Positions 7,245 to 19,129 of a DNA stretch of 64,000 nt are shown piece by piece (position 1 is the first letter of the stretch; every line of letters starts with the position of its first letter). The notes beneath the pieces were generated by a model. The model was not told the DNA's origin, searched no databases, and worked only from the letters and a program-made list of their open reading frames with translations. The position numbers and the translations under genes were made by a program. The stretch is from Microbispora corallina (GTDB lineage: Bacteria > Actinomycetota > Actinomycetes > Streptosporangiales > Streptosporangiaceae). The stretch is from the NCBI RefSeq assembly GCF_016863035.1, contig NZ_BOOC01000006.1, forward strand, positions 124,001 to 188,000, given 5' to 3'.

Positions 7245-7844
7245 ATGCACGAGACGTGGAACGCGTGGGGACATGTCGTCGTCGCGGCCGTCCTGGCCCT
7301 TCCCGTGGCGGTCCTCGCCGCGTTCCTCCTCGCGCGCCGCCGCCGCCGCGCGGGACATCCCGCTCCCCGGCGGACGGCGTTCGCGGACGTCGCCGTCGTG
7401 GCCGGTACCGCCCCCTGGATCTGGATGATCCTCACGCCGGGGACGGCGCGGGGCGTGGACCTCGTCCCCCTGGTCGACCTGGCGGACCAGATCGTGTCGA
7501 TGCCCCCGGTGGCGGCGTTCGTGCAGATCGGGGGCAATCTCCTGGACTTCGCGGCGCTCGGCGCGGCGCTTCCGGTCCGCTCGCCGCGCTTCGCCTCGCT
7601 CACCGCCGTGGCCGCCGTCGCGGCCACGGCCTCGCTCACCGTCGAGATCCTCCAGTACGCCCTCCGGATCGGGCGGGTGAGCTCGGTGGACGACGTGATC
7701 CTCAACACGGCGGGCGCGGTGCTCGCGGCGCTCGCCACCCGGAGGTGGTGGGCCCGGCCTCCCGGCCCTCGCCGTGGCCGCGCCGAGGCCCGGGAGGTCA
7801 GGCGGCGGCGATCTCGCCGAGCAGCCGGTCCCAGTCGGCCGTGA
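7245..7844 (+). CDS. VanZ-like membrane protein
   Basis: This 199-residue protein has about four membrane segments: residues 9-30, 46-65, a segment near 95-115, and 118-170 with the VanZ signature region TVEILQYALRIGRVSSVDDV followed by ILNTAGAVLAALA. VanZ-like proteins are small membrane proteins; the founding member gives low-level teicoplanin resistance by an unclear mechanism. The C-terminus is arginine-rich and overlaps the end of the convergent glycosyltransferase gene by 47 bases. Its place at the edge of a glycan locus suggests a cell-envelope role, but this is not proven. Confidence 0.72.
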   Translation: MHETWNAWGHVVVAAVLALPVAVLAAFLLARRRRRAGHPAPRRTAFADVAVVAGTAPWIWMILTPGTARGVDLVPLVDLADQIVSMPPVAAFVQIGGNLLDFAALGAALPVRSPRFASLTAVAAVAATASLTVEILQYALRIGRVSSVDDVILNTAGAVLAALATRRWWARPPGPRRGRAEAREVRRRRSRRAAGPSRP

Positions 7845-8751
7845 ACCGGCGGATGTCGTAGCGGGCGAGCGCCGCGGCCCGGGCGGCCTTGCCCGCCTGG
7901 GCGGCGAGCTCGGGGTCGGAGGCGTACGCGTCGAGCGCCCGGACGAGCGATGTGATCTTGGTGGACACGACGCCGGCCTCCGGCGGCACGGCCTCCACGG
8001 CCTCGGTGGTCGCCAGCGCCACGACCGGCATGCCGATCATCATGGCCTCGATGAGCGACAGGCCCAGCGAGGTCCAGCGGTAGGGGTGCAGGTAGACGCG
8101 CCGGCGCGCGAGCCCGGCGTGCATCTCGGCCTGCGGCACGTCCTCGTACGCCTGGACCCGGTCCGTCAGGCCCAGAGTCGTGGGCAGCCCGGTGACCCCC
8201 ATGCCGTACACGTCGAGCGGCGCGGCGGCGGCGAACGTGGGCAGCAGGTCGGTGCCGGCGACGCGCCACCTGCGGATCGGCTCGTTCACGACCACGCCCG
8301 CGTGCGGAAGCTCGCCCGTGTAGAGGTGGCCCGGGTCGACCACGCCGTGCTCGATCACATGGGTGGGAGCGTGCCCGGAGTCCCAGAACAGGTCGTTGAA
8401 GTGGGTGACGTGGACGAGCGGGATGTCCCCGCGGCCGGCCAGGGCGTGCCGGGTCTTCGGGACGTCGCCCGCCGGGGTGTTGTGCTCGACGTACACGCCG
8501 GGCACGGGCCGGCCGAGCCACTCCCGGGCCAGGTCGACCTCGTGCGGCCGCTGGTAGACGACCACGTCGACCTCCTCGTCCGCGAGCCGGTCGAACGGCA
8601 CCTCGCGCACGTTCTCCGGCCATGGGTAGGTGCGGGCCCGCCCGCGTCCGTCGGGCCCGCGGTCGGGCGTCAGCGGAACCAGGTAGTCGTGGCCCCCCTG
8701 CACGAAGGAGGTGGTCCACGAGCCGTGCACGTGCCAGACCAGAATTCGCAT
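7798..8751 (-). CDS. Glycosyltransferase family 4-like protein
   Basis: This 317-residue protein of GT-B fold opens with MRILVWHVHGSW. It has the acceptor-side segment YVEHNTPAGDVPKTRH and the donor-binding C-terminal segment YLHPYRWTSLGLSLIEAMMIGMPVVAL, where the acidic E of SLIEAM corresponds to the conserved EX7E-type glutamate of GT4 enzymes. It is shorter than typical GT4 proteins of about 380 residues because the N-terminal domain is compact. It lies on the minus strand with the HAD phosphatase gene, divergent from the main heptose operon, and very likely serves the same glycan. Donor and acceptor are unknown. Confidence 0.82.
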   Translation of the reverse strand: MRILVWHVHGSWTTSFVQGGHDYLVPLTPDRGPDGRGRARTYPWPENVREVPFDRLADEEVDVVVYQRPHEVDLAREWLGRPVPGVYVEHNTPAGDVPKTRHALAGRGDIPLVHVTHFNDLFWDSGHAPTHVIEHGVVDPGHLYTGELPHAGVVVNEPIRRWRVAGTDLLPTFAAAAPLDVYGMGVTGLPTTLGLTDRVQAYEDVPQAEMHAGLARRRVYLHPYRWTSLGLSLIEAMMIGMPVVALATTEAVEAVPPEAGVVSTKITSLVRALDAYASDPELAAQAGKAARAAALARYDIRRFTADWDRLLGEIAAA

Positions 8752-8799
8752 CAGATCATCGCTCCCCGTCCGTCGATCGGTCGGCCTTCCCGCGGTCCC

Positions 8800-9420
8800 T
8801 CACGCCGCCCCGTCGGCCCCACCCCCCTGCCCCGCCAACCCGCCTTCATCCCCCTCGCGAGGCGTGCCCACGCCGGCGCCGTCCAGCACCATGTCCACGG
8901 CCGCGCCCAGGTCGGGCGCCACCTCGGGGGCGGCGGCCACCTCCTCGGGCAGCGTCACGGGCGTCGGTACGAGGATTCCCCGCGCGCCGGCCGCCCGTGC
9001 GGCCGCGACGTCGCGCCCGATGTCGCCGATCACCACGCAGTCGCCCGGCGCCACGCCCAGCGTCCGCGCGGCGCGCAGCACGAGCCCGGGGGCGGGCTTG
9101 CGGCAGTCGCAGCCGTCGTCGTCGTCGTGCGGGCACACGGCCCACACGTCGAACGGACCGAGAAGCTCCTCCACGCGGGCGTTCACCTCGCGCAGGGCCT
9201 CCGGGCTGATGATCCCCCTGGCCACCCCCGACTGGTTGCTCACGATCCCCATCGGGAGGCCGGCCCGGCGCAGGCGGTCGAGCGCCCGGCCTGCGCCCGG
9301 GACCGGTTCGACCAGGTTTGGATCGCTGTTGTATGGAACGTCCCGGATGAGCGTTCCGTCACGATCGAAGAGCACCGCGGCGGGGCGGCGCGAATGGCGT
9401 GGCAATACGTCCTCCTGCAT
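8800..9420 (-). CDS. gmhB: D-glycero-beta-D-manno-heptose 1,7-bisphosphate 7-phosphatase
   Basis: This 206-residue HAD-IIIA phosphatase has nucleophile Asp19 and acid/base Asp21 in LFDRDGTLIRD, the threonine/serine loop SNQSG (61-65), Lys108, and the acidic loop GDIGRD. Cys96, His98, Cys104 and Cys106 (CPHDDDDGCDCRKP) form the zinc loop characteristic of GmhB and the histidinol-phosphatase relatives. The reaction expected is removal of the 7-phosphate from heptose 1,7-bisphosphate, between the two HldE steps. GmhA and HldE are encoded nearby in the opposite orientation, which makes this assignment far more likely than histidinol phosphatase. The last 20 residues are a glycine-rich tail. Confidence 0.85.
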   Translation of the reverse strand: MQEDVLPRHSRRPAAVLFDRDGTLIRDVPYNSDPNLVEPVPGAGRALDRLRRAGLPMGIVSNQSGVARGIISPEALREVNARVEELLGPFDVWAVCPHDDDDGCDCRKPAPGLVLRAARTLGVAPGDCVVIGDIGRDVAAARAAGARGILVPTPVTLPEEVAAAPEVAPDLGAAVDMVLDGAGVGTPREGDEGGLAGQGGGADGAA

Positions 9421-9537
9421 GAACCGCCCCCCGGGCTACCCGGGCCTCAAGGTCGCAAACACGGCCATTGACTACTGACAGTGACGATTTCTGAGTTCAC
9501 CCCCCACTCACGTCGAGTTATCCGCAAAGCGGTGTTT

Positions 9538-9549
9538 AGAAGCGCTTCT
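9538..9549. promoter_or_regulatory. LacI-type palindrome in the heptose-locus promoter
   Basis: AGAAGCGCTTCT is a perfect 12-bp palindrome with a central CG, the form bound by LacI/GalR-family carbohydrate regulators. It is 41 bases upstream of the carbamoyltransferase start, in the divergent promoter region of the heptose locus. No LacI gene is present in the window. Confidence 0.4.
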
Positions 9550-9589
9550 CTCGGTAACCAGACACCCACCGCGCAACGGAGGTAAACCG

Positions 9590-11230
9590 ATGCGATTCCT
9601 GGGGATAAACGCGATATTCCATGATCCAGCCGCCGCGCTGGTCGTGGACGGAGAGGTGGTCGCGGCCGCCGAGGAGGAGCGGTTCAGCCGCCGCAAGCAC
9701 GGCAAACGGCCGGTGCCGTTCTCCGCCTGGGAGCTGCCCGAGATGGCGGCCGCCTGGTGCCTGGAGCAGGCCGGGCTCCGCCCGGAGGACCTGGACGGGG
9801 TCGCCTACTCGTTCGACCCCCGGCTCGTCCGCCCCGGGCAGGCCGGGCTCGACGACCGCTGGGAGGACCTGCGCACCACCTACGCCCATCGCGCCCCCAA
9901 CTTCCTCGCCACCGCGCTTCCCGGGCTCGACCCCGCCCAGGTGAGCTTCGTCCCCCACCACGTCGCCCACGCGGCGTCCGCCGGTCTCGCCGCGCCGTTC
10001 CGGGAGTCGGCCGTCCTCGTCTGCGACGGGCGGGGCGAGGCGGTCTCCCACCTCGCCGGGCACTACCAGGACGGCGAGCTGACCGTCCTGGCCACTCAGG
10101 AGCTTCCCCACTCGCTGGGACTCATGTACGAGGACCTCACCCAGCACCTCGGCTTCCTCAGGTCGAGCGACGAGTACAAGGTCATGGCCATGGCCTCCTA
10201 CGGGCGCCCCCGCTTCCTCAGGGAGCTGCGCGAGCTCGTCCACCCGACGGGCGACGGGGGGTTCCGCGTCGAGCCGATCGACTGGAGCGTGTACGCCAAG
10301 GCCCTGTCGAAGGGCGAGGCGTGGACGGCCGACCACGCCGACCTGGCCGCCAGCGTCCAGATCCGCCTGGAGGAGGTCCTGCTGGACCTCGTCCGCTGGC
10401 TGCACGACCGGACCGGCGCCCGCCACCTGACCATGGCCGGGGGCGTCGCGCTCAACTGCGTGGCCAACACCCGCCTGTTCCACGAGGGTCCGTTCGAGGA
10501 CGTGTGGGTGCAGCCGGCGGCGGGAGACTCCGGCACCGCCCTCGGCGGCGCGCTGCACCTGGCCCGAGCGCACGGCGACCCGGTCGTCCCGATGCCCGGC
10601 GCCGACCTCGGCCGCGGGTGGAGCGACGACGAGCTGGCCGCCTGGCTGGACGTGGCCAAGGTGCCGTACGAGCGGCCGGCGGACCTGGCCGCGGCCGTGG
10701 CCGCCGAGCTCGCCGCCGACAGGATCGTGGCCTGGTTCCAGGGACGGGCCGAGTACGGCCCGCGGGCGCTCGGCCGCCGGTCGCTGCTCGCGCACCCCGG
10801 CAGGCCGGGCAACACCGAGCGGCTGAACGACGTCAAGGGCCGCGAGCAGTTCCGTCCCATCGCCCCGATGGTGCGGGCGGAGCGCGCCCCCGAGATCTTC
10901 GGCAGGGGCCCGGTGCCGAGCCCGTACATGCTGTTCGTCCACGACGTGCGGCCCGAGTGGCGCGGGCGCATCCCCGCGGTCGTGCACGTAGACGGGACCG
11001 CGCGCATCCAGACGGTCGAGCGCGACCGGGACCCGCTGCTCGCGCGGCTGCTGGAGGAGTTCGAGGCGCGGACCGGGCTGCCCGTGGTGGTCAACACCAG
11101 CCTCAACACCGCGGGCCGTCCCATGGTCGACGACCCGCGCGACGCGCTGGAGTGCTTCGGCTCCGCGCCCGTCGATGTGCTCGTGCTCGGCCCGTACCTG
11201 GTGCGCAGAGGGGCGGTGTTCGCCGGATGA
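9590..11230 (+). CDS. Carbamoyltransferase, NodU/CmcH/TobZ family
   Basis: This 546-residue enzyme has the two domains of O-carbamoyltransferases. The N-terminal Kae1-like domain opens with MRFLGINAIFHDPAAALVV and carries the metal-binding HHVAH (about 124-128) and GGVALNC loops. The C-terminal YrdC-like domain carries FQGRAEYGPRALGRRSLL and NTSLNTAGRPMVDDP. The family makes carbamoyl-adenylate from carbamoyl phosphate and ATP and passes the carbamoyl group to a sugar hydroxyl. CGGAGG lies 7 bases before the ATG. It is first in a run of nine genes joined mostly by 4-base overlaps, so it probably carbamoylates a sugar of the heptose glycan. The acceptor is unknown. Confidence 0.92.
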   Translation: MRFLGINAIFHDPAAALVVDGEVVAAAEEERFSRRKHGKRPVPFSAWELPEMAAAWCLEQAGLRPEDLDGVAYSFDPRLVRPGQAGLDDRWEDLRTTYAHRAPNFLATALPGLDPAQVSFVPHHVAHAASAGLAAPFRESAVLVCDGRGEAVSHLAGHYQDGELTVLATQELPHSLGLMYEDLTQHLGFLRSSDEYKVMAMASYGRPRFLRELRELVHPTGDGGFRVEPIDWSVYAKALSKGEAWTADHADLAASVQIRLEEVLLDLVRWLHDRTGARHLTMAGGVALNCVANTRLFHEGPFEDVWVQPAAGDSGTALGGALHLARAHGDPVVPMPGADLGRGWSDDELAAWLDVAKVPYERPADLAAAVAAELAADRIVAWFQGRAEYGPRALGRRSLLAHPGRPGNTERLNDVKGREQFRPIAPMVRAERAPEIFGRGPVPSPYMLFVHDVRPEWRGRIPAVVHVDGTARIQTVERDRDPLLARLLEEFEARTGLPVVVNTSLNTAGRPMVDDPRDALECFGSAPVDVLVLGPYLVRRGAVFAG

Positions 11231-12360
11231 CCAGACCGACGCCAGGCGGCGACCGCCGCCGCACGACCGCCGCCGCGCCCGGCGCCGCGGCGGAGACCAC
11301 ACCCCGCGCCACGCAGGCGAAGGCCCGCGGGAAGGCGTCCGGGACGGCCGCTGCCCGGGGCCGTACGGCGCGGAAGGACAGCGGGCCCGCCGTGACCGTC
11401 GTGATCCCGACGATCGGGCGGCCCAGCCTGGCCGCGACGCTCGCCGCGATCGGGCCCGGCCCGGAGATCATCGTGGTGGACGACCGGACCGGCGACCCGG
11501 AGCCCCTGGCCGTGCCCGCGCGCGTCCGGGTCCTGCGATCCGGCGGACGCGGGCCGGCGGCGGCGCGCAACGTCGGCTGGCGCGCCGCGACGACGCCCTG
11601 GGTGGCGTTCGTGGACGACGACGTCGTCCCCGGGCCCGGGTGGGTGGAGGCGCTGGCCCGCGACCTGGCGGACCTGCCGGCGACGGTGGGCGGCAGCCAG
11701 GCGCGGCTGGAGGTGCCGCTGCCCGGCGACCGCCGCCCGACCGACGCCGAGCGCAACACCGCCGGTCTTGCCGGCGCCCGGTGGATCACCGCCGACATGG
11801 CCTACCGCAGGTCGGCCCTGGAGGCGGCGGGCGGCTTCGACGAGCGGTTCCCGGCCGCCTACCGGGAGGACTGCGACCTCGCGTTACGCGTCGAGGCGGC
11901 GGGCTTCTCCCTGGTCGGGGGCGAGCGGCTGACGCGGCACCCCGTCCGCCCCGACGGGTTCTGGTCGAGTGTGCGGCTCCAGCGGGGCAACGCCGACGAC
12001 GCGCTGATGCGCCGGGTGCACGGACCGGGCTGGCGGGACGCCATCGGCGGCGCTCCCGGGCGGCTTCGGCGGCACGCCCTGACGACGGGCGCCGCGGTCC
12101 TGGCCCTCGGCCTGTCCGCGGCGGCGGCCCTGACGGCCCGGCCCGGCCCCGGCCGGCGGGCGCTGGGCGCGGCGGCCGGAGCGGCCGGCCTCGCCTGGCT
12201 CGGGCTGACCGCCGAGTTCGCCTGGGCGCGGATCGCGCCCGGGCCGCGGACCGCGGAGGAGATCCTGCGCATGACGGTGACGAGCGTGGTCATCCCGCCG
12301 GTCGCGTGCGCGCACCGGCTCAGGGGCGAGGCGTCGGCGCGGGCAGGAGGGCGCTCGTGA
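11227..12360 (+). CDS. Glycosyltransferase family 2 with C-terminal membrane segments
   Basis: This 377-residue protein starts in an ATGA overlap with the carbamoyltransferase. Residues 1-55 are Ala/Arg/Thr-rich and probably disordered. The GT-A domain follows: VTVVIPTIGRP, EIIVVDDRT, the DxD metal site in FVDDDVVPG, and the acceptor loop YREDCDLALRVEAAG (the ED motif). Two hydrophobic segments near 290-310 and 320-340 anchor the C-terminus, putting the active site at the cytoplasmic membrane face. Such enzymes transfer sugars to lipid-linked or membrane-bound acceptors. The donor is not predictable. Confidence 0.87.
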   Translation: MTRPTPGGDRRRTTAAAPGAAAETTPRATQAKARGKASGTAAARGRTARKDSGPAVTVVIPTIGRPSLAATLAAIGPGPEIIVVDDRTGDPEPLAVPARVRVLRSGGRGPAAARNVGWRAATTPWVAFVDDDVVPGPGWVEALARDLADLPATVGGSQARLEVPLPGDRRPTDAERNTAGLAGARWITADMAYRRSALEAAGGFDERFPAAYREDCDLALRVEAAGFSLVGGERLTRHPVRPDGFWSSVRLQRGNADDALMRRVHGPGWRDAIGGAPGRLRRHALTTGAAVLALGLSAAAALTARPGPGRRALGAAAGAAGLAWLGLTAEFAWARIAPGPRTAEEILRMTVTSVVIPPVACAHRLRGEASARAGGRS

Positions 12361-13388
12361 TCGGGACCGCCCTGGTGGTGCGGCCCGACAACGCGGGCGA
12401 CGTCCTGCTGGCCGGCCCGGCCATCCGGGCCGTGGCCGCGGGCGCGCGCGAGGTCGTGCTGCTCGCCGGGCCGCACGGCCGGGCCGCGGGCGAGCTGCTC
12501 CCGGGTGTGGACCGCGTGATCGAGTGGCAGACCCCCTGGATCGATCCCGGCCACGTGCCCGCGACCGAGGCCCACATCCTGGGGCTGATCGACGCCGTGC
12601 GCGAGATCGCGCCCGACGCGGCGCTGATCCTCACCTCGTTCCACCAGTCGGCCCTGCCGACGGCGCTGCTGCTCCGGATGGCCGGCACGCCGGTGATCGC
12701 CGCCATCAGCGCCGACTACCCCGGCTCCCTGCTGGACGTGCGCCACGTCGTCGACGAGGACGTGGACGTGCCGGAGGCCGAGCGCATGCTCGACCTCGCC
12801 GGGGCCGCCGGGTTCGCGCTCCCGCCCGGCGACGACGGCCGCCTCGCCGTGCGGACGCCCCTGCCGGAGGTCGACCACTTCACCGGGCCGCCCGGGTACG
12901 TCGTGGTCCACCCCGGCACCACGGCCCCGGCGCGTGCCTGGCCTCCGCAACGCTGGGTCGAGGCCGTCGAGGGGCTCCTCGAGGCGGGGGAGCGGGTCGT
13001 GGTCACCGGCAGCCCGGGGGAGCGCGAGCTCACCGCCCTCGTGGCCGGGCCCAAGGCGCTCGACCTGGGCGGCGCCACGACCTTCGCCGAGCTCGCCGCC
13101 GTCCTCGCCGGGGCGAGCGCCGTCGTGGCGGCCAACACCGGCCCCGCCCACCTGGCCGCCGCCGTCGGCACGCCCGTCGTCAGCCTCTTCGCGCCCGTCG
13201 TGCCCGCCGCCCGCTGGGCCCCGTACGGCGTGCCGTCCGTGCTGCTGGGAGACCAGCAGGCTTCCTGCCGGGGGACCCGTGCGAGGGTCTGCCCCGTCCC
13301 CGGCCATCCGTGCCTCTCCTCCGTCCGTGGAGATCAGGTCGTCGAGGCGGTCCGCCGCCTCGCCGTCGTGAAAGAGAGGGTGCCATGA
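12357..13388 (+). CDS. Glycosyltransferase family 9, heptosyltransferase-like
   Basis: The 343-residue product starts at the GTG of 12357, overlapping the previous stop by 4 bases; the open frame extends upstream but homology does not. The N-terminal motif VVRPDNAGDVLLAGPAIRAV and the C-terminal VVHPGTTAPARAWPPQRW and AANTGPAHLAAAVGTPVVSLF are the hallmarks of GT9 (ADP-heptose:acceptor heptosyltransferase) GT-B enzymes, the last being the nucleotide-binding loop. In Gram-negatives the family builds the LPS inner core; a Gram-positive carrying it beside heptose biosynthesis genes must use another acceptor. A second GT9 gene lies at 17217. Confidence 0.9.
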   Translation: MIGTALVVRPDNAGDVLLAGPAIRAVAAGAREVVLLAGPHGRAAGELLPGVDRVIEWQTPWIDPGHVPATEAHILGLIDAVREIAPDAALILTSFHQSALPTALLLRMAGTPVIAAISADYPGSLLDVRHVVDEDVDVPEAERMLDLAGAAGFALPPGDDGRLAVRTPLPEVDHFTGPPGYVVVHPGTTAPARAWPPQRWVEAVEGLLEAGERVVVTGSPGERELTALVAGPKALDLGGATTFAELAAVLAGASAVVAANTGPAHLAAAVGTPVVSLFAPVVPAARWAPYGVPSVLLGDQQASCRGTRARVCPVPGHPCLSSVRGDQVVEAVRRLAVVKERVP

Positions 13389-14587
13389 GGATCGCCCTGA
13401 TATCGGAACACGCCAGCCCGCTGGCGACCCTCGGCGGTGTCGACGCGGGCGGGCAGAACGTGCACGTGGCGGCACTGGCCGTCGCCCTGGCCCGGCGGGG
13501 CAACGAGGTCACCGTGCACACCCGGCGGACCTCGCCCGGCCAGCCCGACCGGGTGGAGATGGCGCCCGGGGTCACGGTCGAGCACGTGCCCGCCGGGCCG
13601 GCCGAGCAGGTGCCCAAGGACGAACTCCTGCCGTACATGCAGGAGTTCGCCGAGCACCTCGCCCGCCGCTGGGCGGCCGGGCCGCCCGACGTGGCGCACG
13701 CGCACTTCTGGATGAGCGGGCTCGCGACCGTGACGGCCGCCGAGGACCTCGGCGTGCCCGTCGTGCAGACGTTCCACGCGCTCGGCACGGTGAAGCGGCG
13801 CTGGCAGGGCGCGGCGGACACCAGCCCGCCCCGGCGCGTCGCGGTCGAGCGCGACGTGGGACGCCGCGCGCTCGCGGTGATCGCCACCTGCAGCGACGAG
13901 GTCAGGGAGCTGACGGTCATGGGCGTGCCGGCCGACCGGATCACCGTCGTGCCCTGCGGCGTCGACCTGGACACCTTCCGCCCGGACGGCCCGGCCGCCC
14001 CCGGCAACGGCCGGCCGCGCGTGCTCAGCATCGGCCGCATGGTGCCGCGCAAGGGCGTGGACACGGTGATCCGGGCGATGCGCCTGGTGCCGGGGGCCGA
14101 ACTCGTCGTCGCGGGCGGGGACCCCGCCGACCCGTCCGACGAGGAGACCGCCCGGCTGCGCGAACTGGCCGCCGCCTACGGCCTGGCCGACCGGGTCCAC
14201 CTGATCGGCGGCGTGGGCCGCCGGGACGTGCCCGCTCTGATGCGCTCGGCCGACGTCCTGGCGACCGTGCCCTGGTACGAGCCGTTCGGCATGGTGCCGC
14301 TGGAGGCGCTGGCGTGCGGCGTGCCCGTCGTGGCCTCCGCGGTCGGCGGCCATCTCGACACGGTGGCCGGCTGCGGTGTCCTCGTCCCGCCCCGCAGGCC
14401 CCGCGCCCTGGCCCGGGCGCTGTGCGACCTGCTGGCCAGGCCCGCGCTGCGGGCCGCGCTCTCGGCGGCCGGGGTGCGCCGGGCCCGCGCCCGGTACGGC
14501 TGGCCGCGGGTGGCCGAGCAGACCGAGTCCGTATATCGCAACCTGATCGGCGGGCGCCTCGGCAGCCTCGCCGCGGCGGGAGGCTGA
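13385..14587 (+). CDS. Glycosyltransferase family 4
   Basis: This 400-residue GT-B enzyme has an N-terminal ISEHASPLATLGGVDAGGQN loop and a Rossmann C-domain with LSIGRMVPRKGVDTVI, and the donor-binding VPWYEPFGMVPLEALACGVPVVAS containing the EX7E motif. The GGVDAGGQNVHV opening is shared with MshA and sucrose-phosphate-synthase-like GT4 enzymes that use nucleotide sugars and retain the anomeric configuration. It overlaps the preceding GT9 gene by 4 bases and precedes gmhA by 3 bases, so it is part of the heptose-glycan operon rather than mycothiol synthesis. Confidence 0.9.
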   Translation: MRIALISEHASPLATLGGVDAGGQNVHVAALAVALARRGNEVTVHTRRTSPGQPDRVEMAPGVTVEHVPAGPAEQVPKDELLPYMQEFAEHLARRWAAGPPDVAHAHFWMSGLATVTAAEDLGVPVVQTFHALGTVKRRWQGAADTSPPRRVAVERDVGRRALAVIATCSDEVRELTVMGVPADRITVVPCGVDLDTFRPDGPAAPGNGRPRVLSIGRMVPRKGVDTVIRAMRLVPGAELVVAGGDPADPSDEETARLRELAAAYGLADRVHLIGGVGRRDVPALMRSADVLATVPWYEPFGMVPLEALACGVPVVASAVGGHLDTVAGCGVLVPPRRPRALARALCDLLARPALRAALSAAGVRRARARYGWPRVAEQTESVYRNLIGGRLGSLAAAGG

Positions 14588-14590
14588 GCG

Positions 14591-15142
14591 ATGCATCCTC
14601 ACTTGGCCCGGCTGAGCACCGCGCTGTCGGCGGTCGACCCGGAGACCCCCAAGATCTACGCCTGGGGATTCAAGCTCGCGGGCGTCCTCAGCGGCGGCGG
14701 GCGGCTGCTCGCCTGCGGCAACGGCGGCTCGGCCGCCGAGGCCCAGCACCTGACGGCGGAGCTGGTGGGGCGCTACCGCGCCGACCGCCGGCCGTACGCG
14801 GCGATCCCGCTGCACGCCGACACCTCGACGCTGACGGCGATCGGCAACGACTTCGGCATGGGGGAGCTGTACGCCCGGCAGGTGCGGGCGCACGGGCGCC
14901 CCGGCGACGTGCTGATGTGCCTGTCCACCAGCGGGTCGAGCCCGAACGTCACCGAGGCCGCCGAGGCGGCGCGCGAGTGCGGGCTGACGACGTGGGCGCT
15001 CACCGGGCCCGCGCCGAACCCGCTGGCGGACCTGTGCGACGAGGCCATCGCCGTTCCCGCCGGGGACACCGCGACCGTCCAGGAGGTGCACCTCACAGTG
15101 ATCCACATGCTCTGCGACGTGATCGAGAAGGCGTGCGCGTGA
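14591..15142 (+). CDS. gmhA: Sedoheptulose-7-phosphate isomerase
   Basis: This 183-residue protein consists of one SIS domain: the phosphosugar loop LLACGNGGSAAEAQHL, the acidic helix TAELVGRY, the ribose/phosphate loop CLSTSGSSPNV, and a C-terminal helix with QEVHLTVIHMLCD carrying the conserved Glu and His of the metal/catalytic site. It should convert sedoheptulose 7-phosphate to D-glycero-D-manno-heptose 7-phosphate, the committing step of ADP-heptose synthesis. Length and motifs match GmhA well. It is followed by hldE with a GTGA overlap, so the first two steps are translationally coupled. Confidence 0.93.
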   Translation: MHPHLARLSTALSAVDPETPKIYAWGFKLAGVLSGGGRLLACGNGGSAAEAQHLTAELVGRYRADRRPYAAIPLHADTSTLTAIGNDFGMGELYARQVRAHGRPGDVLMCLSTSGSSPNVTEAAEAARECGLTTWALTGPAPNPLADLCDEAIAVPAGDTATVQEVHLTVIHMLCDVIEKACA

Positions 15143-16521
15143 CCGGACCCATCGGACCCATCGGACCCATCGTCATCGTCGGAGACTCCCTGCTGGACGT
15201 CGACGTCGAGGGCGACGCCAACCGGCTGTGCCCGGACGCGCCCGTCCCGGTGGTGGAGGGGCGGGCGGAGCACCACCGCCCCGGAGGGGCGGGGCTGGCG
15301 GCGCTGCTGGCCGCCCGCGACGGCACGGAGGTCGTGCTCGTCACCGCCATCGGGGACGACGCCTCCGGCAGGCGGCTGGAGAGCCTGCTCGCGCCCACCG
15401 TCGAGCTCGTACGGCTGCCGCTGCGCGGGTCCACGGTCCGCAAGACCCGGGTGAGGGCGCGCGGCCAGACGCTGCTGCGGATCGACACCGGAGACGGGGG
15501 ACCGGCGGCGGACGCGGCCGCGTCGGGCCGGGCGGCGGCCGCGCTGCGAAGGGCCGCGGCCGTGCTGGTGGCCGACTACGGCGGAGGCGTGGCCGACCTC
15601 CACCGGGACCTCCTGGGCGGCCTCGACGTCCCCCTCGTCTGGGACCCCCATCCCCGCGGCTCGCTCCCGATCCCGGGGTGCGCGCTGGTCACCCCGAGCG
15701 AGGCCGAGGCCAGGACGCTGTCCGGCGAGCCGTACGCCCCGGCCGACCGGGCGGCCCGCCGCCTGGTCCGCGACCTCGGCGCGGAGGCCGTCGCCGTCAC
15801 GCTCGGCGAGCGGGGGGCCGTGCTGGCGCGCCGGGGCGGCCGGTTCTGCGCGGTCCCGCCCCCCGCGGTCGCGGTCGGCGCCGACGTCTGCGGCGCGGGC
15901 GACCGGTTCGCCGCCGCGGCGGCGCTCGCGCTGGCCGACGGCGCCCCCACCGAGGACGCGGTCGTCCGGGCCGTCGGGGAGGCCACCCGGTTCGTGGAGG
16001 AGGGCGGTGCGGCCGGGCTGCGCCTCGCCCGGCCGGCGGCCGAGGTTCCCGCGCCGTTCGCCCCCGGGGCGTCGGCCTTCGAGGTGGCGGCCGCCGTGCG
16101 GGCGGCGGGCGGGCGGCTGATCGCCACCGGCGGCTGTTTCGACCTGCTGCACGCCGGGCACGTGAGCCTGCTGCGCCGGGCCCGGGCGCTCGGGGACGCG
16201 CTCGTGGTCTGCCTCAACTCCGACGCGTCGATCCGGCGCCTCAAGGGCCCGAGCCGGCCCGTGGTGCGCGAGCGGGACCGGGTGGAGGTCCTGCGGGCGC
16301 TGGGCTGCGTCGACGCCGTCACGGTCTTCGACGAGGACACGCCTTCGGAGATCATCGAGCGCCTCGGCCCGGACGTGTGGGTCAAGGGCGGCGACTACAG
16401 CGAGAGGTCCATGCCCGAGGCCGAGGCCGTGCGGCGGTCCGGGGGCGAGGTCGTCATCCTGCCGACCGTGCCCGGCTACTCGACGACCGGCCTGATCGCG
16501 GCCGCGCAGGCGGCCTCCTGA
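15139..16521 (+). CDS. hldE: Bifunctional heptose 7-phosphate kinase / heptose 1-phosphate adenylyltransferase
   Basis: The 460-residue product begins at the GTG of 15139. Residues 1-310 form a PfkB/ribokinase kinase domain (DANRLCPDAPVPVVEG substrate loop; catalytic Asp in VCGAGDRFAAAAALA). Residues 330-460 form a cytidylyltransferase-like domain (TGGCFDLLHAGHVSLLRRAR with the HxGH motif; VKGGDY). This is the HldE fusion that makes heptose 1,7-bisphosphate and, after GmhB, ADP-heptose. The kinase GAGD motif is preceded by Val-Cys rather than the usual Thr, a minor deviation. The extreme N-terminus is GPIGPIGPI, encoded by three tandem 9-base repeats. Confidence 0.93.
   Translation: MTGPIGPIGPIVIVGDSLLDVDVEGDANRLCPDAPVPVVEGRAEHHRPGGAGLAALLAARDGTEVVLVTAIGDDASGRRLESLLAPTVELVRLPLRGSTVRKTRVRARGQTLLRIDTGDGGPAADAAASGRAAAALRRAAAVLVADYGGGVADLHRDLLGGLDVPLVWDPHPRGSLPIPGCALVTPSEAEARTLSGEPYAPADRAARRLVRDLGAEAVAVTLGERGAVLARRGGRFCAVPPPAVAVGADVCGAGDRFAAAAALALADGAPTEDAVVRAVGEATRFVEEGGAAGLRLARPAAEVPAPFAPGASAFEVAAAVRAAGGRLIATGGCFDLLHAGHVSLLRRARALGDALVVCLNSDASIRRLKGPSRPVVRERDRVEVLRALGCVDAVTVFDEDTPSEIIERLGPDVWVKGGDYSERSMPEAEAVRRSGGEVVILPTVPGYSTTGLIAAAQAAS
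15145..15171 (+). repeat. Triplicate 9-bp repeat at the hldE start
   Basis: Three exact tandem copies of GGACCCATC encode Gly-Pro-Ile x3 immediately after the GTG start of hldE. Copy-number change would keep frame and only alter the N-terminal tail. Confidence 0.85.
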
Positions 16522-16545
16522 CACGCGACTCGAAGGGACATATCG

Positions 16546-17226
16546 ATGGTGGGAAACATTCTGATCACCGGGGGGGCGTCCGGCCTCGGGCGGGCCACGG
16601 CGACCGCGGTCGCCAAGGCCGGCGGCCGGCCGCTGGTGATCGACCTCGGCGAGCCCGACGGCGGCGTGGACCACGTCCGGGCCGACCTGTCGGACCGGGA
16701 ACAGGCCGAGCGGGCCGTCCGCGAGCTGGCCGAGCGGGCCGGCGGTCTCGACGGCGTGGTGACGGCCGCCGGGATCGACGCCTGCGGACGGCTGGAGGAC
16801 GTGCCGGCCGACGCCTGGGAGCGGGTGATCCGGGTCAACCTGCTGGGCACGGCCTCGGTCGTCCGGGCCGCCCTGCCGTACCTGCGCCGGTCGAACGGCA
16901 CGGTCGTGACCGTGGCCTCCACGCTGGGGATCAAGGCGGTGAGCGACGCGACCGCGTACTGCGCCGCCAAGTTCGGCGTGGTCGGGTTCACCCGCGCGCT
17001 CGCGGCCGAGCTCGCCGGGGACGTGGGGGTCACGCTGCTGATCCCCGGGGGCATGCGCACCAACTTCTTCGACGACCGCGACGAGAAGTACAAGCCGGGG
17101 CCCGACGCCCGCCTCAACCAGCCCGAGGACGTCGCCGCGGCCGTCGTCTTCGCGCTCGGCCAGCCCCGCGGGTGCGAGGTCAGGGAGCTCGTGGTCTGCG
17201 CCTCCACGGAGACGTCATGGCCGTAG
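16546..17226 (+). CDS. SDR family oxidoreductase of the heptose locus
   Basis: This 226-residue short-chain dehydrogenase has ITGGASGLGRATA (cofactor loop), TAAGID, TVASTLG (catalytic Ser), YCAAKFG (Tyr and Lys) and PGGMRTNFF. It has all catalytic residues and is slightly shorter than typical SDRs. It lies 24 bases after hldE and overlaps the following GT9 gene by 10 bases, so it is in the operon. A likely role is oxidation, reduction or epimerisation of the heptose or another sugar of the glycan; no HldD-type 6-epimerase is present, and this SDR is not an HldD homologue by its motifs. The substrate is unknown. Confidence 0.87.
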   Translation: MVGNILITGGASGLGRATATAVAKAGGRPLVIDLGEPDGGVDHVRADLSDREQAERAVRELAERAGGLDGVVTAAGIDACGRLEDVPADAWERVIRVNLLGTASVVRAALPYLRRSNGTVVTVASTLGIKAVSDATAYCAAKFGVVGFTRALAAELAGDVGVTLLIPGGMRTNFFDDRDEKYKPGPDARLNQPEDVAAAVVFALGQPRGCEVRELVVCASTETSWP

Positions 17227-18167
17227 CGGACGGGCCGGGCCGGCCCGCGCTGCTCGTCCTGCGCGGGCTCGGGCTCGGCGACCTGCTCACCGCCGTCCCG
17301 GCGCTGCGGGCGCTGCGGCGGGCGTACCCGGAGCACCGGCTGGTGCTGGCCACCCCGGCGTACCTGGGCGGCCTGCTCCCGCTGATCGGCGGGATCGACG
17401 ACCTGGTGGACGTGTCCGGGCCGGGCCCGGTGCCGTTCGCGGCCCCCGGCGTGGCCGTCAACCTGCACGGCAGCGGGCCGGAGAGCATCGTGGCCCTGCG
17501 CCGCACCCGGCCGGGCCGGCTGCTCACCCACGCACACGCCGGGGTCCCCGGCGCGGACGGCCCGCCGTGGCGTGCGGACGTCCACGAGGTGCGACGCTGG
17601 TGCGACCTGCTGGAGTGGCACGGCATCGAGACCGACCGCGAGGACCTCGCGCTGCTCGACCCCGGGCCCGGACCGCTCGACGGCGGCGAGGTGCTCGTCC
17701 ACCCGGGGGCGTCGTCCGCCGCCCGGCAGTGGCCCCCGGAGCGGTTCGCCCAGGTGGCGGCCGAGCTGACCCGGCTCGGCCACCGGGTCGTCGTGACCGG
17801 CGGCGTCGGCGAGATCGCCCTCGCCCGGCACGTGGCGGCCCTCGCCGGGCTGCCCGAGGAGGCCGTGCTCGCGGGCCGCACCGACCTGCCCGTCCTGGCC
17901 GCGCTGACCCGGCACGCGGCGCTGGTCGTCTGCGGCGACACCGGGATGTCGCACCTCGCGACCGCCGTCGGCACGCCCTCGGTGGTCCTGTACGGCCCGG
18001 TGCCGCCGGTCCTGTGGGGTCCGCCCGAGAGCCATCCCCACGTCACGCTGTGGACGGGCAGGACCGGCGACCCCCACGCCGACCGGCCGTCGGAGGGCCT
18101 GCTGGAGATCGAACCCCCGGCCGTGCTGGACGCGGCCCTGTCCCTGCTGGAGGTGCGGGTCCGATGA
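17217..18167 (+). CDS. Second GT9 heptosyltransferase-like protein
   Basis: The 316-residue product starts with ATG at 17217 inside the end of the SDR gene. GT9 motifs: LLVLRGLGLGDLLTAVPALRAL at the N-terminus, VLVHPGASSAARQWPPERF, and the nucleotide-binding VVCGDTGMSHLATAVGTPSVVLYGP. Sequence similarity to the first GT9 (12357) is modest, which suggests different acceptors, as with heptosyltransferases I and II. The start follows from the overlap and the motif position; a longer upstream open frame is not homologous. Confidence 0.9.
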   Translation: MAVADGPGRPALLVLRGLGLGDLLTAVPALRALRRAYPEHRLVLATPAYLGGLLPLIGGIDDLVDVSGPGPVPFAAPGVAVNLHGSGPESIVALRRTRPGRLLTHAHAGVPGADGPPWRADVHEVRRWCDLLEWHGIETDREDLALLDPGPGPLDGGEVLVHPGASSAARQWPPERFAQVAAELTRLGHRVVVTGGVGEIALARHVAALAGLPEEAVLAGRTDLPVLAALTRHAALVVCGDTGMSHLATAVGTPSVVLYGPVPPVLWGPPESHPHVTLWTGRTGDPHADRPSEGLLEIEPPAVLDAALSLLEVRVR

Positions 18168-19129
18168 AGGGCGCCAGGGTCGTGGTCACCGGCGGCGCCG
18201 GCTTCCTCGGCTCCCACCTGTGCGAGCGGCTCGTCGACCGCGGCGCGGCCGTCGTCTGCATGGACAACTTCCTCACCGGCTCGCCCCGGAACGTGGAGCA
18301 CCTGATCGGCCGTCCCGCCTTCCGGCTGCTGGAGTGCGACCTCACCGGGTTCGTGCACGTGCCGGGCACGGTCGACCTCGTCCTGCACTTCGCCTCGGCC
18401 GCCTCCCCGGCCGACTACCTGCGCCATCCCATCGAGACGCTCAAGGTCGGCAGCCTCGGCACGCTGCACGCCCTCGGGCTGGCCACCGAGAAGGGCGCCA
18501 GGTTCGTCCTCGCGTCCACCAGCGAGGTGTACGGCGACCCCCTCGAGCACCCGCAGAAGGAGACGTACTGGGGCAACGTCAACCCCGTGGGGCCGCGCAG
18601 CGTGTACGACGAGGCCAAGCGGTTCGCCGAGTCCCTGACCACGGCCTACCGCAACTCCCGGGGGACCGGCACCGGCATCGTGCGGATCTTCAACACGTAC
18701 GGCCCCCGGATGCGGCCGCACGACGGCCGGGCCATCCCCACGTTCATCCGGCAGGCGCTGACCGGTGAGCCGATCACGGTGACCGGGGACGGCAGCCAGA
18801 CGCGCTCGATCTGCTACGTGGACGACACGGTCGAGGGCGTCCTCGCGCTCGCCGAGGCCGACGCCGCCGGGCCGGTCAACATCGGCAACCCCGCGGAGAT
18901 GTCCATGGCCGAGCTGGCCGCGACGATCCGCGACCTCACCGGCTCGTCGTCGCCGATCCGCTTCGTCGAACGGCCGGTGGACGACCCCGCCGTACGGCGG
19001 CCGGACACCTCGCTCGCGGAGTCGCTGCTCGGCTGGCGTCCCCACATCGACCCGGTGACCGGGCTCCGCCGCACGATCGACTGGTTCGCCAAGGAGCTCC
19101 GCGCTCCCCGGTCCGCGCTCGCCTCCTGA
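18164..19129 (+). CDS. NAD-dependent epimerase/dehydratase, UDP-xylose-synthase-like
   Basis: This 321-residue extended SDR has the NAD loop VTGGAGFLGSHL, then HFASAASPADYL, the serine-containing STSEVYGDP, and YDEAKR with catalytic Tyr and Lys. The string HPQKETYWGNVNPVGPRSVY is characteristic of UDP-glucuronate decarboxylases, which make UDP-xylose, rather than of HldD epimerases. If so, the locus supplies a pentose as well as heptose. It overlaps the preceding GT9 by 4 bases and is the last operon gene. A dTDP-glucose-dehydratase-like or epimerase function remains possible. Confidence 0.85.
   Translation: MKGARVVVTGGAGFLGSHLCERLVDRGAAVVCMDNFLTGSPRNVEHLIGRPAFRLLECDLTGFVHVPGTVDLVLHFASAASPADYLRHPIETLKVGSLGTLHALGLATEKGARFVLASTSEVYGDPLEHPQKETYWGNVNPVGPRSVYDEAKRFAESLTTAYRNSRGTGTGIVRIFNTYGPRMRPHDGRAIPTFIRQALTGEPITVTGDGSQTRSICYVDDTVEGVLALAEADAAGPVNIGNPAEMSMAELAATIRDLTGSSSPIRFVERPVDDPAVRRPDTSLAESLLGWRPHIDPVTGLRRTIDWFAKELRAPRSALAS

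Follow-up and report, generated by a model that had tools for sequence, protein, structure and literature searches.

A cwg-type gene module in Microbispora corallina and its predicted heptose, xylose and carbamoyl glycan

Introduction

What does a Gram-positive actinomycete make with genes of the kind that serve the heptose of Gram-negative lipopolysaccharide (LPS)? The question is raised by a locus at positions 7798-19129 of a 64,000-nucleotide stretch of the Microbispora corallina genome (contig NZ_BOOC01000006.1, positions 124,001 to 188,000; hereafter the window). The locus holds 11 genes, nine on the plus strand and two divergent on the minus strand. A first-pass annotation had recognised here a GmhA-HldE-GmhB heptose route, two GT9, two GT4 and one GT2 glycosyltransferase (GT) genes, a carbamoyltransferase, a short-chain dehydrogenase (SDR) and a UDP-xylose synthase-like gene (UXS), and all of these were found to be present.

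The cwg operon of Streptomyces coelicolor has long been suspected of making a cell-wall glycan. It is described as a 12-gene operon, SCO6179-6190, with SCO6186 annotated as a phosphoheptose isomerase and SCO6187 as a bifunctional enzyme (PMC5839063). It was one of the first two sigma-E targets known in Streptomyces, is partly sigma-E-dependent and induced by vancomycin, and has its promoter printed 147 bp before the start codon (PMC6767563). The cwgE product is a putative heptosyltransferase (PMC5882110).

Results

Relation to the cwg operon

Genomes were searched with the published 29-base SCO6179 site, mismatches being allowed as stated for each set. In Streptomyces the site was found in 7 of 392 genomes at up to two mismatches and exactly in one (G843), where an in-frame GTG lies 147 bp downstream, in agreement with the published distance. 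Loci were fetched from six of the seven genomes (G756 was left out), and five of them showed the same run of 12 genes: UXS, carbamoyltransferase, GT2, GmhB-type HAD phosphatase, GT9a, GT4b, GT4a, GmhA, HldE, GT9b, GT2 and GT2. A deacetylase gene is divergent to this run in the same five loci, as is SCO6178. GmhA, HldE and a transferase occupy places 8, 9 and 10, matching the annotation of SCO6186-6188 (PMC5839063), and GT9a at place 5 fits cwgE as a putative heptosyltransferase (PMC5882110). The first ten genes of the operon behind the exact promoter match window genes at 51-72% identity.

The sixth locus (G740, L201) kept the divergent deacetylase and the site with one mismatch, and the 18 kb fetched held no matches to the module but GT2- and GT4a-like ones; judged by these remains, it is a decayed or replaced cwg locus. 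A class-level search at up to three mismatches gave the site in 2 of 296 genomes. The one with two mismatches (G468) heads a homologous operon, and the one with three (G582) showed none of the core genes over the 19.9 kb fetched.

The window has orthologues of ten of the 12 cwg genes, namely UXS, carbamoyltransferase, GT2, GmhB, GT9a, GT4b, GT4a, GmhA, HldE and GT9b. The two systems differ in that UXS stands last in the window and first in cwg, that GmhB and GT4b are divergent in the window and that an SDR has been added there. In the window, queries with cwgK and cwgL led back to the one GT2 named above, and no deacetylase was matched; no sigma-E site was found before the operon. On these comparisons of sequence the locus is identified as the cwg gene module in its Microbispora form. 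The kind is already known, and the window member is a variant of it that departs in the order and set of its genes and in their control.

The first-pass annotation was right in pointing to related arrangements in Streptomyces. Its statement that there is no experimental assignment is not supported, as the literature gives cwg a mapped promoter, partial dependence on sigma-E and induction by vancomycin (PMC6767563, PMC5839063). Its undescribed surface glycan stands in so far as no product of cwg, or of any actinobacterial heptose glycan, was named in the literature found, subscription papers being outside the search; as a problem it was already the long-standing cwg question.

Gene organization

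The window has a G+C content of 73.5% in a genome of 8.36 Mb. Genes were called with codon-position composition, Pfam and NCBIfam profiles and sequence searches of the PDB (Table 1). For GT2 the composition-based caller picked a start at 11392; an in-frame ATG at 11227 overlaps the carbamoyltransferase stop codon (ATGA). Overlaps of four bases were found there and at the GT2/GT9a, GT9a/GT4a and GT9b/UXS junctions, with a further one at GmhA/HldE if HldE starts at the GTG at 15139. The nine plus-strand genes, described earlier as mostly coupled in this way, are so at four or five of eight junctions.

Table 1. Features of the heptose-type locus in window coordinates (pLDDT, predicted local distance difference test).
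Feature	Position	Strand	Basis
GT4b, retaining GT-B glycosyltransferase, cwgF-type	7798..8751	-	Pfam Glycos_transf_1; model (pLDDT 91.5) with many GT4 enzymes among its Foldseek matches
GmhB-type heptose-1,7-bisphosphate 7-phosphatase, HAD-IIIA, cwgD-type	8800..9420	-	TIGR01656, TIGR01662, PDB, zinc motif
Conserved control region 5' of carbamoyltransferase, inverted repeat GAAGCGCTTC at 9539-9548	9507..9589	.	Alignment
O-carbamoyltransferase, cwgB-type	9590..11230	+	Pfam Carbam_trans_N/_C; PDB TobZ, NovN, GdmN
GT2 glycosyltransferase with C-terminal helices, cwgC-type	11227..12360	+	Pfam; structure model
GT9a, heptosyltransferase-like, cwgE-type	12357..13388	+	Pfam PF01075; PDB WaaC/WaaF
GT4a, sucrose-phosphate-synthase/MshA-like, cwgG-type	13385..14587	+	Pfam/NCBIfam, PDB sequence searches
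GmhA, sedoheptulose-7-phosphate isomerase, cwgH-type	14591..15142	+	Pfam/NCBIfam, PDB, motifs
HldE, heptose-7-phosphate kinase / heptose-1-phosphate adenylyltransferase, cwgI-type	15139..16521 (alternative start 15133)	+	Pfam/NCBIfam, PDB, motifs
SDR, short-chain dehydrogenase	16546..17226	+	Pfam; comparison across loci
GT9b, heptosyltransferase-like, cwgJ-type, WaaC Asp kept	17217..18167	+	Pfam, PDB, motifs
UXS, UDP-glucuronate decarboxylase / UDP-xylose synthase, cwgA-type	18164..19129	+	PDB search, motifs

Heptose donor enzymes

The top PDB matches of GmhA were phosphoheptose isomerases, and each domain of HldE matched its own relatives. The HldE motifs GAGD and HxGH were intact in all 80 named loci, these being the best 80 of at least 436 relatives among at least 592 pattern matches in named genomes. 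The adenylyltransferase domain of HldE scored above its NCBIfam cut-off (185 against 181.5 bits). The HAD phosphatase was above cut-off for TIGR01656 and TIGR01662 (HAD-IIIA and histidinol-phosphatase-domain models), had a D,D-heptose bisphosphatase as top PDB match, and kept its zinc motif wherever the gene was present (64 of 64 named loci, 20 of 20 in Streptomyces).

The isomerase, kinase/adenylyltransferase and bisphosphate phosphatase of the ADP-D,D-heptose pathway are all present with their active-site motifs, some scores lying below equivalog cut-offs. A complete enzyme set from sedoheptulose-7-phosphate to an NDP (nucleoside diphosphate)-D,D-heptose is supported by homology, as the first reading of the locus had proposed; the donor supply is well supported on this basis and the catalysis is predicted. 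None of 12 HldD epimerase matches in the genome was above cut-off, which makes D-glycero-D-manno-heptose consistent as the end form.

The residue tallied as GmhA E50 was Gln in all 21 Streptomyces loci and was not taken for the catalytic Glu; the roles of the tallied residues in GmhA and HldE are presumed. In a commentary, one HldE position is linked to the choice of nucleoside triphosphate (PMC11461863). Tyr was found at this position, residue 449 of the frame at 15133-16521, in the window, in the six named Microbispora without exception and in Nocardia and Amycolatopsis. All 20 Nonomuraea and 20 of 21 Streptomyces have Arg. It is His in five of seven Sphaerisporangium and both Spongiactinospora, and Gln in four of four Planomonospora. 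The donor nucleotide may differ between lineages.

Xylose branch, carbamoyltransferase and glycosyltransferases

The last gene of the locus is nearest to UDP-glucuronate decarboxylases, with 339 bits to human UXS1 against 140 bits for the next family. Its product has the Glu, Tyr-Lys and Arg motifs, with no NCBIfam model above cut-off. Five of six UDP-glucose-dehydrogenase-family matches in the genome were above cut-off. UDP-glucose dehydrogenase, which supplies the UXS substrate, adjoins the module in 31 of the 80 named loci (none in Streptosporangiaceae; one member Pfam-checked), and this supports the xylose branch.

The carbamoyltransferase has the Carbam_trans_N and _C domains with the HHxxHA motif (TobZ/NodU type), and its closest PDB relatives are antibiotic enzymes. 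GT9a has Asn at the position of WaaC Asp261 in 71 of 72 loci. GT9b keeps both the N-terminal and the C-terminal WaaC Asp where aligned, the second in 79 of 79, and therefore one or two heptoses may be added. PDB matches of the GT9 proteins at E up to 1 comprised LPS heptosyltransferases and one GT9 of unassigned role. The residue roles in UXS, WaaC and TobZ are those that we take them to have. The GT9, carbamoyltransferase and UXS-like genes of this Gram-positive organism, as first annotated, are all supported.

The GT2 model (pLDDT 91.1) showed three long C-terminal helices at residues 225-247, 253-281 and 288-317, numbered from the 11392 start, and a membrane placement is favoured by these helices in a confident model. 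The folds of GT4b and GT2 were also considered as pointers to the acceptor and were not decisive, the GT4 and GT2 matches being broad. For the SDR, an orthologue at 45% identity or more was found in none of the 21 Streptomyces loci; three have SDR matches of 32-35%.

Distribution of the module

In the 80 named loci GmhA, HldE and SDR were present in 80 each, GT9b in 79, UXS in 75, GT9a and GT4a in 72 each, carbamoyltransferase in 70, GT4b in 66, the HAD phosphatase in 64 and GT2 in 63, with gaps partly due to contig ends. With full flanks, 52 of 66 loci hold all 11 genes at 44% identity or more and 14 are without one to three. The grouping is more than chance, because all 11 genes recur together in these 52 loci with their active-site motifs kept. 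Loci with the module were found in Streptosporangiaceae, Nocardia, Amycolatopsis, Mycobacterium and others.

Among Microbispora, HldE was matched at 1e-150 in 11 of 15 genomes and as split hits in three more, G014 having only a 44% match. In Streptomyces, 79 of 199 genomes had a match at 1e-30. Twenty loci fetched by HldE score and that of G468 were examined, and 20 of these 21 have all ten shared genes, the remaining one (L184) six; in L166, UXS was matched by an opposite-strand copy at 53%. Of the 80 named loci, 23 have a gene like cwgK, a single one of these belonging to Streptosporangiaceae, and 20 have a gene like cwgL. Two Streptomyces loci (L168 and L173) carry an added opposite-strand set of cwgL, cwgK, a second GT9a-like gene (44-45%) and a second UXS-like gene (50-51%). 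GT2 and GmhB form a single open frame in 12 of the 61 loci having both.

In 20 of the 80 named loci the module has a polysaccharide pyruvyltransferase-like gene beside it (one member Pfam-checked, with a short match). A neighbour survey gave 15 gene clusters recurring in at least three genera, and no transporter, flippase, polymerase or aglycone gene was recognised among the 12 of them scanned with Pfam; the gene caller missed genes in some loci (e.g. L114), so that an exporter could be overlooked.

Control region

About 83 bases 5' of the carbamoyltransferase gene were strongly conserved (11 aligned rows, ten of them distinct, L044 and L056 being one contig). The inverted repeat GAAGCGCTTC lies in this segment between the divergent genes and is a possible candidate operator. 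A simple sigma-E pattern was present in three of 18 upstream sequences tested (L040, L068 and L077).

Related genes elsewhere in the genome

A second heptose-type locus was observed on contig C13 at about 60.8-71.0 kb (L036:4845-15034), with a GT4 at 60% identity to GT4a, a GT9 at 44% to GT9b, another GT9, HldE2 (39-42% to HldE), an SDR, a transketolase, a topoisomerase IB and a GntR regulator. Considered as the true cwg orthologue, it was rejected, as its gene set differs. The GmhA matches of the genome lie outside it, and an HldE2-like gene occurs in most Microbispora genomes. On C5, at about 73.8-75.3 kb (L191:7755-9288), two adjacent GmhA/SIS-like genes head a co-directional run. A fifth GT9 gene is located on C33 (L037:8622-9683), with no match to a heptose-synthesis gene of the window type in the 18 kb around it.

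Discussion

Proposed product

The observed gene content, the orthology to cwg, the co-conservation and the retained motifs lead us to favour, by a little over even chances, a cwg-type module whose product, a short oligosaccharide of heptose and xylose bearing carbamoyl, is made on a membrane acceptor and exported by functions encoded elsewhere. Also in its favour are the UDP-glucose dehydrogenase genes beside the module, the single frame of GT2 and GmhB in some loci, the GT2 helices, the pyruvyltransferase-like neighbours, the lack of a recognised transporter, polymerase or aglycone gene among the recurring neighbours scanned, and the carbamoylated heptose of Pseudomonas. UXS would convert UDP-glucuronate to UDP-xylose. 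Two GT9, two GT4 and the membrane-anchored GT2 would assemble in the cytosol an oligosaccharide with at most about five sugars, a lipid carrier or a phospholipid serving as its acceptor; the donor of each transferase and the lipid acceptor are here deduced from the enzyme families. The carbamoyltransferase would modify this oligosaccharide, heptose being the plausible site by analogy with the LPS core of Pseudomonas, from which carbamoylated heptose is known (PMC8005017). Machinery encoded elsewhere would export the product and attach it to the envelope. This location, the residue carbamoylated and the chemistry of the product are what we infer, and the product is unproven.

By gene type the module resembles the LPS heptose system in its GmhA-HldE-GmhB route, its two GT9 genes and its carbamoyltransferase gene (WapO in Pseudomonas). 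It differs in the lack of an HldD above cut-off in the genome, its diverged sequences, its xylose branch and its Gram-positive host.

A number of results weigh against the proposed membrane-bound oligosaccharide. Scores against NCBIfam cut-offs were low for GmhA (172 against 209 bits), full-length HldE (280 against 521), its kinase-domain model (136 against 345) and the two GmhB-specific models (107 against 178 and 61 against 150). GT9a may use another donor, and the nearest enzymes to GT4a have soluble acceptors, which speaks against a purely lipid-linked scheme. The absence of export genes would also suit an internal or diffusible product, and two recurring hydrophobic proteins next to some of the loci, DUF6766 and DUF4383, have no assigned function. 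No chemical datum on the product was found in the literature. The sigma-E link is not conserved: the cwg site was found in none of 341 genomes of the window's family at up to three mismatches, the intergenic region of the window has no simple sigma-E pattern, and among the 20 Streptomyces loci picked for their HldE score, of which 19 had upstream sequence, one site with four mismatches and one with eight were seen. The 21 conserved sigma-E targets listed in the excerpt of a published survey do not include cwg. Because the site is not conserved, even in most Streptomyces loci, carrying function over from cwg through sigma-E alone would be unwarranted.

The module could instead make a soluble or secreted small glycoside, a specialised metabolite with carbamoylated sugars like the bleomycin disaccharide or the septacidin heptose; BlmC and BlmE presumably resemble HldE and GT9. 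In bleomycin, a carbamoyltransferase and a sugar transferase act together (PMC7017467), and septacidin shows the use of NDP-heptose in Streptomyces (PMC11461863). The antibiotic relatives of the carbamoyltransferase, the soluble acceptors of GT4a-like enzymes and the patchy occurrence in Streptomyces point the same way. We consider this unlikely, since no aglycone genes were recognised beside the module, which is conserved widely across families, and since GT2 has C-terminal helices.

Somewhat less probable still is an envelope glycan in which at least one of the two GT9 enzymes takes a donor different from NDP-heptose, or the kinase and isomerase serve another sugar phosphate. The Asn in GT9a and the scores below cut-off for GmhA, HldE and GmhB would fit, against which stands the retention of isomerase, kinase/adenylyltransferase and bisphosphatase with their motifs and alongside the GT9 genes. 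That the module heptosylates proteins, as aah in E. coli uses NDP-heptose for protein glycosylation (PMC11461863), is very improbable, as the GT9 matches in the PDB include no protein heptosyltransferase and five transferases with UXS and a carbamoyltransferase suggest an oligosaccharide.

Significance

The carbamoylated oligosaccharide on a membrane acceptor can be taken further, though tentatively and with clearly less confidence than the reading itself. Many actinobacteria (Streptosporangiaceae, Nocardia, Amycolatopsis, some mycobacteria and Streptomyces) would then have in their envelope a glycolipid, or in their wall an oligosaccharide, that is chemically undescribed and consists of D-glycero-D-manno-heptose, xylose and O-carbamoyl. 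Partly a Gram-positive equivalent of the inner core of LPS, it would be what the vancomycin-induced cwg operon makes.

Most enzymatic steps of the cwg module are now assigned by homology, and the module extends far beyond the sigma-E regulon. Three measurable marks are predicted, D,D-heptose, xylose and carbamoyl, which make the twenty-year-old cwg question directly testable. If heptose regularly occurs in actinobacterial envelopes, it would be no marker of Gram-negative bacteria. NDP-heptoses alert innate immunity via ALPK1 (PMC11461863), and these signals could then arise in such actinobacteria too.

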